Below are positions 14,368 through 19,761 of a stretch of 64,000 bases of DNA, piece after piece (within the stretch, counting starts at the first letter, position 1; the number at the start of each line of letters is the position of its first letter). The notes beneath the pieces were generated by a model. That model ran no database searches. It was not told the DNA's origin and was given only the letters and a program-made list of their open reading frames with translations. The translations under genes and the position numbers were made by a program. Origin of the DNA: Chloracidobacterium sp. (GTDB lineage: Bacteria; Acidobacteriota; Blastocatellia; Chloracidobacteriales; Chloracidobacteriaceae); NCBI GenBank assembly GCA_025057975.1, contig JANWUV010000001.1:124001-188000 (forward strand), read 5' to 3'.

Positions 14368-15282
14368 ATGGCTAATCAGTACGCATCGCAGATTTGCCCC
14401 GCTCCATTGACCCTTTCACGGGCCGATTTCTGGCGCGCGGTTCTTGAACTTATGAAGCCGCTTACGTGGTTTGCGCCGATGTGGGCATTTCTGTGCGGAG
14501 CGGTGAGCAGCGGCGCAGCCCCAACTGGGGAGTTTCTTTGGAAGCTCTTTCTGGGCGCAATCTTGGCCGGGCCGCTGATGTGTTCGATGTCGCAGGTGAT
14601 GAACGATTACTGCGACCGCGAAGTGGATCGTTTGAACGAACCGCAGCGTCCGATTCCATCGGGACGCATCACGGAAACGCAGGGTTTGTGGCTGTGTACG
14701 CTGCTAACGGTCGCCTCCTTTGGCATGGCGTGGGTGGTCGGCGCATGGCCGGTGCTGGCGATTACTATCGCCGCCTTTGTGATGTCGCTGCTGTACAGCG
14801 CCCCGCCTGTCCGCGGTAAACGCAATGGGTGGTTCGGCAATGCGCTGGTGAGTTTCGCCTATGAGGGCGTGGCGTGGGCGACGGGTTGCCTAGCGGTCTC
14901 CGGGGCGTTCCCGCCCGCCAGCGTCGTCGGCGCAGTGCTCTACAGCATTGGCGCGCACGGAATTATGACGCTCAATGACTTCAAGAGCGTGCCCGGCGAT
15001 ACGGCGCTAGGCATCCGTTCGGTGCCGGTGCAGCTTGGCATTCCACGGGCGGCGCGGGTGGCTTGCCACATCATGAACCTGCCGCAACTGGCCTGCGTCG
15101 GCGTCTTGGTGTGGTACGGCGCATGGCTTTGGGCAGGCGTGCTGTTTGGGCTACTTGTCGCCCAACTGCCCTTGCAAGTGAAGCTCGTGCGCGACCCTGA
15201 AGCGCGCGCGCCGTGGTACAACGCAACCGGTACGACGCTCTACGTCTTGGGCATGATGGCTTACGCCATCGCCATTCGCTGA
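14368..15282 (+). CDS. bchG: Bacteriochlorophyll/chlorophyll synthase (BchG/ChlG/BchK family, UbiA superfamily)
   Basis: 304 residues from ATG 14368; an upstream TTG at 14305 would add a poorly conserved tail. The first prenyl-diphosphate motif is Asn79-Asp80-x2-Asp83-x3-Asp87, followed by Asn-Glu-Pro-x-Arg-Pro-Ile-Pro-Ser-Gly. The second region, Gly-Ala-His-Gly-Ile-Met-Thr-Leu-Asn-Asp-Phe-Lys near 196-206, is specific to (bacterio)chlorophyll synthases rather than UbiA or MenA. Seven to nine membrane segments are visible. The enzyme esterifies (bacterio)chlorophyllide with an isoprenoid diphosphate. The symbol is used for the family only: Chloracidobacterium-type organisms need synthases for BChl a, Chl a and BChl c, and proximity to csmA makes BChl c (bchK) possible. 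Confidence 0.88.
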   Translation: MANQYASQICPAPLTLSRADFWRAVLELMKPLTWFAPMWAFLCGAVSSGAAPTGEFLWKLFLGAILAGPLMCSMSQVMNDYCDREVDRLNEPQRPIPSGRITETQGLWLCTLLTVASFGMAWVVGAWPVLAITIAAFVMSLLYSAPPVRGKRNGWFGNALVSFAYEGVAWATGCLAVSGAFPPASVVGAVLYSIGAHGIMTLNDFKSVPGDTALGIRSVPVQLGIPRAARVACHIMNLPQLACVGVLVWYGAWLWAGVLFGLLVAQLPLQVKLVRDPEARAPWYNATGTTLYVLGMMAYAIAIR

Positions 15283-15338
15283 CCCCCTTCTGAGGGTTGA
15301 GGCTTGACGAGTTTGTACGCGACGAGAAGACGGAACGT

Positions 15339-16526
15339 ATGAGAATCATCATCTACACCGGCAAAGGCGGGGTTGGAAAAACCAGTGTTGCGGCGGCGAC
15401 GGCGTTGCTGGCCGCCGAGCGTGGTTTGCGGACGCTGGTGATGAGCACCGACCCAGCCCACAGTCTGTCAGACTCGCTGGACGTGCCGCTGGGGCCAGAG
15501 CCGGTGCGAGTCGCCGACCGGCTAGACGCCTTGGAAACAAATGTTTACCGAGACCTTGAAGAAAACTGGGGTCTCGTACGGGCGCACTTTGCTGAAATTC
15601 TCGCCAGTCAGGGCGTGGATGGCGTTCTAGCAGATGAATCTGCGATCCTGCCCGGCATGGAAGAACTGTTTAGTCTGACGCGGATTCGCAAGTACCGGGA
15701 AAGCGGCGAGTATGACCTCCTTGTGGTGGATGCCGCACCGACCGGCGAGACACTGCGGCTGCTTTCCATGCCTCAGACCATGAACTGGCTGATGCGCTTA
15801 GTGCGCGGGCTGGAGGCGTCGCTGGTGCGTCCAATCGTCCGCCCCTTAGCCAACGCCACGCCGGGGTTACGCAAGTACATGGCGTCGGAAGCGGTGTTTT
15901 TAGAAGTTGACCGAATGTTTCGCAATCTGGAGGTCATGCACGACATCCTGTGCGACGGATCGACGACCACCGTTCGCTTGGTGATGAACGCCGAGAAAAT
16001 GGCGATCAAAGAGTCCAAGCGGGCGCTGACGTACCTGAATCTTTACGGCTTGCTTTCGGACGCGATTGTAGTGAACCGCCTGTTGCCGGTGCATGAAAAC
16101 AGTGGGTTTTTGGAAGGGTGGAAGGCGGTGCAACAGCGGTATCTGGCGGAAATTGAGGACTCGTTCCAGCCGTTGCCAATTTTGCGCGCGCCGATGTACG
16201 CTTCGGAAGTTGTCGGAATGGACCGGCTGCGGGTGCTGGCGCGCGACCTGTTCGGTGACAGCGATCCGGCGGCGCGGCTCTACGGCGAGCGTCCCTTTGA
16301 AATGTGTAAATCGGAGCATGACTGCCGGATTCGTATTCGGCTGCCGTTTCTGGAGCCGGACCGGCTTGAAACGTGGATCGCCGGTGATGAACTAGTCATC
16401 CAGATCGGCAACCAGCGGCGTATGGTTGGGCTGCCAACCTCAATGATTGGTTTGGAGCCAACGCATGCCGAGTACCAGAACGAATGGTTGAGTATTTGTT
16501 TTGAAGCTCCGGTCGGCGTTGGCTGA
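15339..16526 (+). CDS. ArsA/Get3-like ATPase with C-terminal HSP20-like domain
   Basis: 395 residues from ATG 15339; an upstream in-frame TTG would add 14 residues before the beta-strand that leads into the P-loop. The deviant Walker A Gly-Lys-Gly-Gly-Val-Gly-Lys-Thr is at 8-15, Ser-Thr-Asp-Pro-Ala-His (switch I) near 38-43, and Asp-Ala-Ala-Pro-Thr-Gly-Glu-Thr-Leu-Arg-Leu-Leu near 135-146. A single ATPase domain is followed by a beta-rich tail (about 325-395) resembling the ArsA HSP20-like domain. No arsB, arsR or arsD is nearby, so arsenite export is unlikely. A Get3-like role in membrane or antenna protein handling is inferred from the position between the synthase gene and csmA. Confidence 0.85.
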   Translation: MRIIIYTGKGGVGKTSVAAATALLAAERGLRTLVMSTDPAHSLSDSLDVPLGPEPVRVADRLDALETNVYRDLEENWGLVRAHFAEILASQGVDGVLADESAILPGMEELFSLTRIRKYRESGEYDLLVVDAAPTGETLRLLSMPQTMNWLMRLVRGLEASLVRPIVRPLANATPGLRKYMASEAVFLEVDRMFRNLEVMHDILCDGSTTTVRLVMNAEKMAIKESKRALTYLNLYGLLSDAIVVNRLLPVHENSGFLEGWKAVQQRYLAEIEDSFQPLPILRAPMYASEVVGMDRLRVLARDLFGDSDPAARLYGERPFEMCKSEHDCRIRIRLPFLEPDRLETWIAGDELVIQIGNQRRMVGLPTSMIGLEPTHAEYQNEWLSICFEAPVGVG

Positions 16527-16716
16527 AGCGCCGCCCAAGAGGTTGTCGCGCCGGACATCGTTACGCAATAGGCGGGCAGGGTAAGCAAACGCGCCTGCCG
16601 TTGCGTTTTGTGCGCTGCTTGAGCGCCCTGCATGAAACGGTCGCCGGCGAACACCTAAGTTGGCGTCCCCAAAGTTCAGCTCACTTCCTCTCCATCACTG
16701 CGGAGGACTTGTCACT
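16527..16716 (+). promoter_or_regulatory. csmA leader region with a short hairpin and a strong ribosome binding site
   Basis: 190 bp separate the ATPase stop from the csmA ATG. GGCAGG (16575-16580) can pair with CCTGCC (16594-16599), and GTTTTG follows a few bases later, so partial termination or attenuation before csmA is possible. A GGAGG at 16702-16706 lies 10 bases before ATG 16717 and fixes the csmA start. I could not find a convincing -35/-10 pair, so whether csmA has its own promoter is open. Confidence 0.4.
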
Positions 16717-16944
16717 ATGGGTCAGTTCAAAAAAGTCGTGGACTCTATCGTCGAAATCGGCGAGATCAATCTTGAGGGCCACATCAACCTCGTCGGCGAC
16801 ATTTACCGCGCCATTGCCTACAACTTTGACCGCATTCAGGGACGCATGTTCGACAACCTGTATGACGGCGGCGGCGCACGGCGCAGCATGGGCGCTGTGC
16901 CGGCGGGGAAAACCACCGCTTCGCGCTTCACGGCGGAAGGCTAG
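16717..16944 (+). CDS. csmA: CsmA-like chlorosome baseplate protein
   Basis: 75 residues from ATG 16717, with GGAGG 10 bases upstream. CsmA of green sulfur bacteria binds BChl a through a His in Glu-Gly-His. Here Glu20-Gly21-His22 is followed by a Val-Gly and then a hydrophobic helix, Asp-Arg-Ile-Gln, and Tyr-Asp-Gly-Gly-Gly-x2-Arg-Ser near 49-57. This matches the order and spacing of known CsmA (His25, Arg-Ile-Asn-Arg, Tyr-Gly-x-Gly-Gly). The Trp that follows His in Chlorobi is Ile here. CsmA forms the paracrystalline baseplate linking BChl c aggregates to membrane antenna proteins. The last 20 or so residues may be cleaved as in Chlorobi, but that is inference. The short length makes the call depend on these motifs and the BchG-family neighbour. 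Confidence 0.88.
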   Translation: MGQFKKVVDSIVEIGEINLEGHINLVGDIYRAIAYNFDRIQGRMFDNLYDGGGARRSMGAVPAGKTTASRFTAEG

Positions 16945-16953
16945 CGGCGGATT

Positions 16954-17010
16954 GGGAAGTTCGGCGTCTGAAGCGCAGCGTTGGCTGTGTGCGCATCGGT
17001 CGGACTTCCC
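16954..17010 (+). ncRNA. Stable stem-loop just 3' of csmA
   Basis: Beginning 10 bp after the csmA stop, 16954-16965 can pair with 16999-17010. The stem is 12 bp, two of them G-U, starting GGGAAGT and closing with ACTTCCC. An inner GCGCA/TGCGC stem spans 16973-16977 and 16990-16994. No T-run follows, so this is better read as an mRNA-stabilising or processing structure than a Rho-independent terminator. Such a structure could raise csmA expression over its neighbours; this is inferred from pairing only. Confidence 0.5.
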
Positions 17011-17078
17011 ACCCTGTGCTTGGGCAAGAGCAAGGTTCATCCACGCCTCGTTTTGGGGCGGTGTGAGGAGGGACGACA

Positions 17079-18335
17079 ATGGTCAACGTCGCATGGGAGT
17101 TGCCTGTCCCTTACATCGGCAAAAACGTCGAACGCAAGCACGTCGAAGAGTTCTTCCGGTACCACCGTGAACCCGACGAGGTCGTGATTGCGGTCTTTGA
17201 TGGGATTATTTTCGACGGCGACGGCAAGCGGGTCGGCGGGCTTACCCTACACGATTACGTGATCTTGACCGACCGGCATTTCATCCTCTGGGCGCGCGGC
17301 CTGCAGTCTGATGTCCTTGACCGGCTGGATTACCGTGGCGTCCGCTTGGATGCCAAGCAGGCTGACACCTTACATGGCGAACTGGCGCTTGAATTCACGC
17401 CACCGGCGGTCTCAAAACCGTTGACGGCGCGGGTGGATTTGCTGCCGATTATGGATCTGCCAGCGCTGGACGAGCTGTTTTCACTGACCAAGGCGGTGGT
17501 TGTCTGGGACGCCGAACGTTCGGCCGGACAAGCCGCCGCTTCCGACGCCGCCCTGACAGACGGTGTGGTGCCAAGCGACGTATCCGCCAAAGTGGAGCGG
17601 ATTCGGACCATCGTGCAGGAATCGCTCGCCAAGCGCGGCGTCGCCTTCAAAGCGCCGGCTACTGTAGGGCGTCCACCGGCACCGCGTGAGCCAGCGTCTC
17701 GGGAGCCATCGCTGGAATCCCCCTTTGGTACGGGTCGGCCGGTTTCCAACGCCAGTTACGCTGTCTATCGGGTCGCGCAGGCGGCGAAGGACGCTGTGAG
17801 CAGCCTGCCGACCGACATCGGCAAAACTCTCGGCCTGGATGAAACCCTTTCAAAGCTGGTGGACCGGATTCCCAAAGTTGAGGACATCAGCCAGATTACC
17901 GCGCTGATTGAGGCGCTCAACAAGTTGTTGATTACGGTGAGCGAGAATCCGGCGGCGCGGGCGTTTCTGCTCCAGGCGATTGATCGCATGGTGGAGCAGG
18001 GAAGTCCACTCAAGCAGTTGTTAGCTTTCATTCAAAACACCGGAAAATCGGCGGCCCAGCCGACTCCGACTGCTCAAGCGTCGCCGCCGGCGGCTGCGCC
18101 GTCTGAAGCGCCAAGCGCCGCAACTGCGTCAAACGGTGCAGCAAAAACAGTCGCTGGCCCACGGCGCACCGCCGTCAAGGTGAGCTTCGCCAAAGAAGGC
18201 GTTGCTGCGCCGGTTGCAGAGCGACGTGCAGAGCCTGCGCCGCAACCGCCGTTGTCCATTGAGTATGGGCGGAAAACGCCGACAGAAGCTACGCCGGAGG
18301 AGTCGGTGAACGCCATAGCAAACGCCGCCCTGTAA
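17079..18335 (+). CDS. PH-like domain protein with helical and Pro/Ala-rich C-terminus, csmA-linked
   Basis: 418 residues from ATG 17079, preceded by GAGGAGG. Residues about 25-125 form a beta-rich bacterial PH-like (bPH) domain: Val-Ile-Ala-Val-Phe-Asp-Gly, then Tyr-Val-Ile-Leu-Thr-Asp-Arg-His-Phe-Ile-Leu-Trp-Ala-Arg-Gly. Residues about 165-200 are charged. About 225-320 is a hydrophobic/amphipathic helical block, and 330-418 is Pro/Ala-rich. There is no signal peptide or clear transmembrane segment. It is 134 bp downstream of csmA. Chloracidobacterium chlorosomes are reported to carry envelope proteins not found in Chlorobi, and this is a candidate for one. I cannot assign it to a named Csm protein from sequence alone. 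Confidence 0.7.
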   Translation: MVNVAWELPVPYIGKNVERKHVEEFFRYHREPDEVVIAVFDGIIFDGDGKRVGGLTLHDYVILTDRHFILWARGLQSDVLDRLDYRGVRLDAKQADTLHGELALEFTPPAVSKPLTARVDLLPIMDLPALDELFSLTKAVVVWDAERSAGQAAASDAALTDGVVPSDVSAKVERIRTIVQESLAKRGVAFKAPATVGRPPAPREPASREPSLESPFGTGRPVSNASYAVYRVAQAAKDAVSSLPTDIGKTLGLDETLSKLVDRIPKVEDISQITALIEALNKLLITVSENPAARAFLLQAIDRMVEQGSPLKQLLAFIQNTGKSAAQPTPTAQASPPAAAPSEAPSAATASNGAAKTVAGPRRTAVKVSFAKEGVAAPVAERRAEPAPQPPLSIEYGRKTPTEATPEESVNAIANAAL

Positions 18336-18525
18336 GGCTTGCAAAGCCCATCTCGCCGCTCAGCGCAAAGGCGGCTGACGGCCGCTTAGAGTGCGGACGC
18401 CGTCCGTCATTTCCGCTTGGCGGTTGGTGAGACAGACCGTTAGATTGCGTATGACGTCGTGACCGCTGGGTGCGATCGCGTCGGTCCTGCCCCCAAGCCA
18501 TCTTGCAGGGCGAGGATGTTCGGCA

Positions 18526-19761
18526 ATGGCAAGTCAAGTCGCGGTCACGCCGTCCGAAATCGTCCCGGCGCGGGCGCGCCTGCCCGTTCAAGCCGCGACG
18601 CGCGCTGCTGTAGCGCGGGACTTCGGCAGTCCCATCATCGAAGCCATTCGCCGGCAGGGCTACTGGTATCGGGTTGGACGGCTCACCTTCCGCTTAGCGC
18701 GTGAGTTTGGTTTCTGCTACGGCGTGGACGATGCGCTTGATCTGGCCTACGAAGCGCGTCGCCGGTTCAACCACCAGACGATTTACCTGACTGGGGAAAT
18801 CATTCACAACCCAGTGGTCAACAACCGGCTCACCGCCCTCGGTGTCCGCCCACTGGATGACTTGGCGCAGGTCACGCCGCGAGATGTGGTCATCATTCCG
18901 GCTTTTGGACTACCGGTCTCTGATTTGGCGCGCCTGCGTGAAACCGGCTGTACGGTAATTGACACAACCTGTGGTTCGGTTGTTCACGTCTGGAAGCGCG
19001 TTGAGCGCTATGCCCGCGATGGCTTCACGACCATCATTCACGGCAAGCACGATCACGAGGAAACAACGGCCACCCGTTCTCACATATTAGCTGTACCGGG
19101 CGGACGGTATGTTGTGGTGCGCAATCTTGAGGAGGCGGAACTCGTGGCGGAAGTCATCGCCGGCACGCAGCCAGCAGCGACTTTGCAGAACTTCTTCGTA
19201 CGAGCGGCCTCGCCGGGTTTTGATCCGGCGCGCGACCTTGAAAGAATTGGCCTTGCCAATCAGACCACCATGCTGGCGAGCGAGTCGCTAGCAATCGCTG
19301 AACGCCTGCGCGCCGCCATTGTCGCGCGGTATGGCGAAGACGAAGCCCCTTTCCGTTTTCGGTCGTTTGACACTATTTGCAGCGCTACGCAAGTCCGACA
19401 AGACGCGGTGGCCGAGTTGCTCGCTTTCCCGCCTGACCTGATGTTTGTCGTGGGCGGCTACAACAGCAGCAACACCGGCCACCTCTGCGAGATGGCTTCC
19501 GCCGTCTGTCCGACTTACCACATCGCTGCGCCCGACTGCATTATGTCAGCCGAGGTTATTCGCCACAAACCGGCCTTCTGCGGTAGGGAAATCCAATCCC
19601 GCAACTGGCTGCCGCCGGGCGAGCTGACGATTGGGCTGACATCCGGGGCATCTACGCCGGATCGGTCGTTGGGCGAGGTCGTTTTGCGACTGGTTGAAGT
19701 CGCCGGTGAGACCCCGCCCAGCGATTGGGCGGCGCGTGGAGCGTTCGAGACGGGTGGTTGA
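18526..19761 (+). CDS. ispH: 4-hydroxy-3-methylbut-2-enyl diphosphate reductase (IspH/LytB), long plant/cyanobacterial type
   Basis: 411 residues. The three [4Fe-4S] ligands are Cys64 (Phe-Gly-Phe-Cys-Tyr-Gly-Val), Cys149 (Asp-Thr-Thr-Cys-Gly) and Cys285 (Thr-Ile-Cys-Ser-Ala-Thr-Gln). The Glu-Ile-Ile-His-Asn-Pro-Val-Val-Asn segment and the length match the plastid/cyanobacterial class rather than the roughly 316-residue E. coli form. IspH makes IPP and DMAPP in the last MEP-pathway step, feeding carotenoid, quinone and chlorophyll-tail synthesis. It sits 190 bp after the PH-like gene on the same strand and meets the convergent Fe-S oxidoreductase gene with only 3 bp between them. Identification is firm; the start could be a little downstream. 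Confidence 0.95.
   Translation: MASQVAVTPSEIVPARARLPVQAATRAAVARDFGSPIIEAIRRQGYWYRVGRLTFRLAREFGFCYGVDDALDLAYEARRRFNHQTIYLTGEIIHNPVVNNRLTALGVRPLDDLAQVTPRDVVIIPAFGLPVSDLARLRETGCTVIDTTCGSVVHVWKRVERYARDGFTTIIHGKHDHEETTATRSHILAVPGGRYVVVRNLEEAELVAEVIAGTQPAATLQNFFVRAASPGFDPARDLERIGLANQTTMLASESLAIAERLRAAIVARYGEDEAPFRFRSFDTICSATQVRQDAVAELLAFPPDLMFVVGGYNSSNTGHLCEMASAVCPTYHIAAPDCIMSAEVIRHKPAFCGREIQSRNWLPPGELTIGLTSGASTPDRSLGEVVLRLVEVAGETPPSDWAARGAFETGG

Follow-up and report, generated by a model that had tools for sequence, protein, structure and literature searches.

Four genes, bchG, get3-1, csmA and a gene for a protein with a pleckstrin homology (PH)-like domain, lie in this order on one strand of a 64,000-nucleotide (nt) stretch of a 3.52 Mb Chloracidobacterium genome (GCA_025057975.1, contig JANWUV010000001.1, positions 124,001 to 188,000; hereafter the window), and their linkage is retained in all eight phototroph genomes that we identified, which span two genera. 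We propose, with a probability of roughly one half, that in phototrophic acidobacteria these genes constitute a unit for the biogenesis of the chlorosome baseplate. Chlorosome assembly and the route of CsmA to the baseplate are unsettled between 'budding' and 'aggregation' models (PMC9316378), and Get3d proteins are conserved in photosynthetic organisms, with partners unknown (PMC10248533); the four-gene unit, together with a second Get3d gene in a reaction-centre cluster, points to specific genes and candidate clients for each of these questions, in bacteria that can be grown in axenic culture. The features of the locus are as follows:

14368-15282, + strand: bchG, (bacterio)chlorophyll synthase (TIGR01476, PRK07566)
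15339-16526, + strand: get3-1, Get3d-type ATPase (PF02374, PF17886)
16663-16716, + strand: csmA 5' leader with the Shine-Dalgarno region (near-invariant in seven genomes and recognisable in an eighth, predicted pairing)
16717-16944, + strand: csmA, chlorosome baseplate protein of 75 amino acids (PF02043)
17079-18335, + strand: PH-like protein of 418 amino acids (eight-genome alignment, AlphaFold2 model of residues 1-148)
18526-19761, + strand: ispH-2, second copy of IspH (4-hydroxy-3-methylbut-2-enyl diphosphate reductase), adjoining the conserved unit (PRK13371)

An earlier, sequence-only reading had described five same-strand genes here, and all five open reading frames were recovered on the + strand at these positions, with family scores in agreement; its naming was sharpened for three of them, in that the chlorophyll synthase scores as the BchG type (one of three in the genome), the Get3-like ATPase is of the Get3d type (Get3 core plus alpha-crystallin domain) and the genome carries two IspH copies, of which this is the second. 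Successive spacers between the five genes measure 56, 190, 134 and 190 nt. Because no sigma-70-type promoter-like site was found at the five-gene locus, nor any terminator-like site on the + strand between the genes, co-transcription is possible.

Conservation of gene order was assessed within and beyond the genus. The order bchG-get3-csmA-PH-like-ispH was identical in seven of seven Chloracidobacterium genomes (the window genome and six others), which is weak evidence by itself because the genes flanking the block, a PBP4-type gene and an iron–sulfur (Fe-S) gene, were syntenic in all seven as well. A genome from another genus of the same family (G008), which carries csmA, fmoA, pscA and three chlorophyll synthases over cut-off, keeps the order bchG-get3-csmA-PH-like between a serpin gene and a von Willebrand factor A (VWA) gene, with no ispH in the cluster; its PH-like and Get3d proteins are 54% and 78% identical, respectively, to those of Chloracidobacterium. 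Because these four genes are retained in a second genus between different, unrelated flanks, we take the conserved unit to be the four genes without ispH and their linkage to exceed chance, so that the earlier suggestion of an order conserved among phototrophic acidobacteria holds for four genes and fails for the fifth. Among the genomes tested, csmA, fmoA, pscA and a BchG over cut-off were confined to the same eight phototrophs, which were likewise the only ones of 162 genomes of the class to hold any chlorophyll synthase over cut-off. G008 represents a second phototrophic genus of the Chloracidobacteriaceae, in contrast to a 2026 paper that names Chloracidobacterium as the sole one (PMC12816986).

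In the unit as we envisage it, BchG would provide bacteriochlorophyll (BChl) a for the baseplate, and Get3d-1 (the get3-1 product), acting as a chaperone of hydrophobic clients that carries an alpha-crystallin domain, would hold an amphipathic client in solution: CsmA, the helical half of the PH-like protein, or both. ATP hydrolysis would release this client at the cytoplasmic membrane or the chlorosome face. The PH-like protein would be peripheral: its PH-fold domain would bind to a membrane protein or to the head group of a lipid, the amphipathic helical domain would touch the envelope monolayer or CsmA, and the protein might thereby scaffold assembly or attachment. Co-transcription, the identity of the client, the membrane docking and the role in assembly are what we infer; the genes, their order and its conservation in two genera, the restriction of the PH-like gene to phototrophs, the domains of Get3d-1 and the predicted PH-type fold are what we observe.

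The synthase, a member of the UbiA family, exceeded the cut-offs of both models applied (TIGR01476, 333.5 bits against 212.3; PRK07566, 366.9 against 313), and relative scores, rather than any enzyme test, point to BchG for the locus copy among the three paralogues of the window genome, with the copy on C7 leaning to ChlG and that on C9 to BchK; by these scores, the locus gene most likely encodes a BChl a synthase. Such an enzyme is a sensible neighbour for csmA because CsmA binds BChl a in the baseplate (PMC3175400). CsmA itself scored weakly against the Bac_chlorC family (PF02043; 29.9 bits, cut-off 25), which was also exceeded in the other seven phototroph genomes, and is 89-100% identical across the eight. 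His22, which we take to be equivalent to the BChl ligand, is invariant within an EGH motif in the eight-genome alignment. A match of CsmA to a peroxiredoxin sequence in the PDB (E = 0.06) was judged to be chance, and no CsmA relative was found in a scan of viral contigs.

The PH-like gene was present in eight of eight phototroph genomes (in phototroph genome G001, at 2110113-2111421 of contig 1); a phylum-wide sample of 396 genomes contained it in four, each of them Chloracidobacterium, with none found in the other Acidobacteriota searched; a pattern scan of a collection of genome contigs, a method that detects close relatives only, recovered three loci, all of the Chloracidobacterium type. 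The suggestion that this gene is a phototroph-specific candidate is thus borne out, and because the PH-like protein is found in phototrophs only, it and the adjacent ATPase are good candidates for a part in antenna assembly. The protein matched no family in Pfam or NCBIfam, and none of its eight members matched a curated PH family at E values up to 10. Across the eight sequences, a strongly conserved N-terminal domain (residues ~10-147) is followed by a variable Pro/Ala-rich linker and, in the C-terminal half, by a conserved helical domain (~215-325) and a variable tail. AlphaFold2 modelling gave a predicted local distance difference test (pLDDT) score of 43 for the full-length protein and 74.6 for residues 1-148 (the other four models, 38-62). 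A Foldseek search with this N-terminal model returned the Lam6 PH-like domain as the best match (E = 6.5e-4), with PH/PTB-type folds among the top matches, and residues 14-140 matched the structures of bacterial PH domains (3dcx and 3hsa; Z of 8.9 and 8.3). The modelled domain is consistent with a PH superfold (a seven-strand barrel and a C-terminal helix), supported at the level of fold only; the earlier 'PH-like' label therefore stands for structure but not for sequence. The fold is common to bacterial PH domains (DUF1696/PF08000), whereas the protein described here has no sequence match to a PH family and joins the fold to a linker and a helical domain. Hydropathy suggested no transmembrane segment (maximum of 1.24 in a 19-residue window), and the hydrophobic moment is high along several of the helical segments. 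A match to a sigma-70 sequence in the PDB (E = 0.2) was judged to be chance.

In the strongest alternative, the PH-like protein is a structural protein of the chlorosome envelope, possibly one already named as CsmR, CsmS, CsmT, CsmU or CsmV, and the Get3d gene is its neighbour by chance. The gene is restricted to phototrophs and adjoins csmA, and the envelope proteins CsmV, CsmR, CsmS, CsmT and CsmU of Chloracidobacterium thermophilum are unrelated to those of other phyla (PMC9316378), a likeness to the PH-like protein, which is also chlorosome-linked and without homologues in other phyla. We consider this alternative doubtful, though to be taken seriously.

Get3-1 scored 307.6 bits against ArsA_ATPase (PF02374), with an intradimeric Walker A motif (GKGGVGKT) seen in alignment, and 60.1 bits (cut-off 22.5) for a C-terminal ArsA_HSP20 domain (PF17886) at residues 330-388. 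Its P-loop, switch I and switch II are intact, and the CXXC zinc motif is absent from get3-1, from two further paralogues (p2 and p3; get3-1 being p1) and from the relatives aligned. A Get3 core, an alpha-crystallin domain and the lack of CXXC are the defining features of Get3d, for which a hydrophobic chamber and the binding of tail-anchored segments have been described in other organisms (PMC10248533); judged by its domains, get3-1 is a Get3d-type ATPase, with client binding and ATP hydrolysis predicted. It shares the ATPase core, the alpha-crystallin domain and the missing CXXC with AtGet3d and NosGet3d (All4481; PDB 3igf/8egk), and has a full switch I, as do the green sulfur and nonsulfur Get3d proteins of PMC10248533, with a score below the curated cut-off of the NosAFP equivalog (NF050088; 143.5 bits against 325). 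In contrast to AtGet3d and NosGet3d, it adjoins csmA and has non-phototrophic orthologues: order-mates without phototrophy carry a single-copy relative, 53-56% identical and with other neighbours, and in a tree of acidobacterial sequences only, the get3-1 group was sister to this single Get3d (support 100/100). Within the family, get3-1 was found in the phototrophs and was absent from G007 and G009, two large genomes of non-phototrophs. Get3-1 therefore looks, from its phylogeny, like a native acidobacterial Get3d that was later linked to csmA, and its standing as a phototrophy-specific candidate holds within the family but not among order-mates; of the two genes singled out by the sequence-only reading, occurrence with other neighbours in non-phototrophs was found for the ATPase and not for the PH-like gene. 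Of 396 genomes of Acidobacteriota, about 40 carried Get3d-type genes, many of them non-phototrophic, a distribution that runs counter to a strict link between Get3d and photosynthesis.

The phototrophs hold two additional Get3d paralogues, p2 and p3, that are essentially confined to them:

p2 cluster, L070:6248-12963 (G000 contig C3), also L072 and L113: pscA-pscB-fmoA-get3-cytochrome c, with p2 directly after fmoA and before the cytochrome c gene
p3, L071:9027-10779 (G000 contig C6): Get3d paralogue with a degenerate switch I, preceding a cation-efflux gene in the window genome

Three genomes from both genera were examined for the p2 cluster and all show this gene order, so that Get3d is tied to photosystem genes more than once; two of the three Get3d genes are located in conserved photosynthesis clusters. 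Outside the phototrophs, the Acidobacteriota searched yielded no close relative of p2 (E up to 1e-70) and, for p3, a single distant match (38% identical) at E up to 1e-60. Very long stems lead to both p2 and p3 in the tree; p2 shares the Get3d type with get3-1 but falls in a distinct, long-branched clade. In a 2010 survey, an ArsA homologue of C. thermophilum with 420 amino acids was grouped in cluster 11, with proteins from Chlorobi and Chloroflexus (PMC2963123), and we infer this homologue to be p2. A literature search joining chlorosomes with Get3 found no paper.

A second alternative holds that get3-1 is a general cytoplasmic Get3d, serving membrane-protein targeting or proteostasis and inherited vertically, beside which csmA and bchG were inserted, so that the linkage carries no meaning. 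The well-supported sister relationship to non-phototroph Get3d proteins and the occurrence of Get3d-type genes elsewhere in the phylum are what such a history would leave, but the four genes have stayed linked in two genera despite changed flanks, both genera also have another Get3d gene next to pscAB-fmoA, and non-phototrophs of the same family lack get3-1; we think this explanation unlikely. That the conserved order reflects mere close kinship of the genomes compared is very improbable, for although the PBP4-type and Fe-S flanks are syntenic throughout Chloracidobacterium, G008 keeps the four genes in different surroundings.

Several observations weigh against the proposed baseplate unit itself. 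Get3-1 descends from a gene that is kept with other neighbours in non-phototrophic order-mates, and chlorosome assembly is therefore not its ancestral job. The spacers around csmA measure 134-190 nt, with values of 230 and 636 nt in G008, and a conserved leader precedes csmA, so that this gene may have its own promoter. CsmA, moreover, is short, amphipathic and not tail-anchored, and would thus be an unusual Get3 client. A tentative extension of the unit, which we put forward at lower confidence than the unit itself, is a division of labour in which Get3d-1 is dedicated to the CsmA baseplate, with the PH-like protein as partner, and Get3d-2 (p2) to the PscAB-FMO reaction-centre complex. If true, Get3d would gain its first genetically indicated clients, one of which would have a new membrane or envelope receptor in the PH-like family.

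The csmA leader (~55 nt) is nearly invariant in the seven Chloracidobacterium genomes and recognisable in G008, in contrast to the rest of the spacer, and its Shine-Dalgarno sequence (GGAGGA) is predicted to be base-paired; RNA-level control of CsmA through this leader is possible. Matches to the leader motif near pscA/fmoA, ChlG, BchK and the third get3 were two-mismatch matches at chance level, and for this reason we claim no shared regulon element.

The surroundings of csmA may differ in other phyla, as the earlier reading held. Acidobacterial CsmA has PF02043 and pigment-synthesis neighbours in common with CsmA of the Chlorobi and Chloroflexi, at a weak family score here. Its gene is accompanied by bchG, get3d and the PH-like gene, whereas in Chloroflexus the csmA-bchG linkage is absent, as csmA (Caur_0126) and bchG (Caur_2088) lie far apart (PMC3150298). 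Turning to the Chlorobi, linkage of csmA to an ArsA-type gene may be partly known already. A literature text search (CT1945/Q46366) found no statement of ArsA adjoining csmA in that phylum. A UniProt ArsA entry of Chlorobaculum tepidum may stem from the paper that sequenced csmCA. The accession of CsmC (Q46367; PMC12285230) would fit an accession neighbouring that of the ArsA entry.

The fifth gene of the locus, ispH-2, encodes a protein scoring 223.6 bits against LytB and 462.7 bits against PRK13371 (cut-off 440), with the GFCYG, DTTCGS and DTICSAT motifs that hold the cysteines of the Fe-S site present in its translation. Two PRK13371-type IspH genes were found in each of the three Chloracidobacterium genomes examined, a canonical copy on another contig or another chromosome (513-519 bits) and the locus copy (458-462 bits), whereas one IspH gene each was seen in G008 and in the non-phototrophs G007 and G009. 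As a second copy that is missing from the G008 cluster, IspH was rejected as a member of the unit, and the earlier idea that the locus ties in terpenoid supply did not hold for the conserved part. The two copies of one genome are ~55% identical, and identity within the genus is mostly 72-81% for the locus copy against 88-90% for the canonical one; by these comparisons, ispH-2 is a second copy specific to the genus that evolves faster and accompanies the four-gene unit as a passenger.

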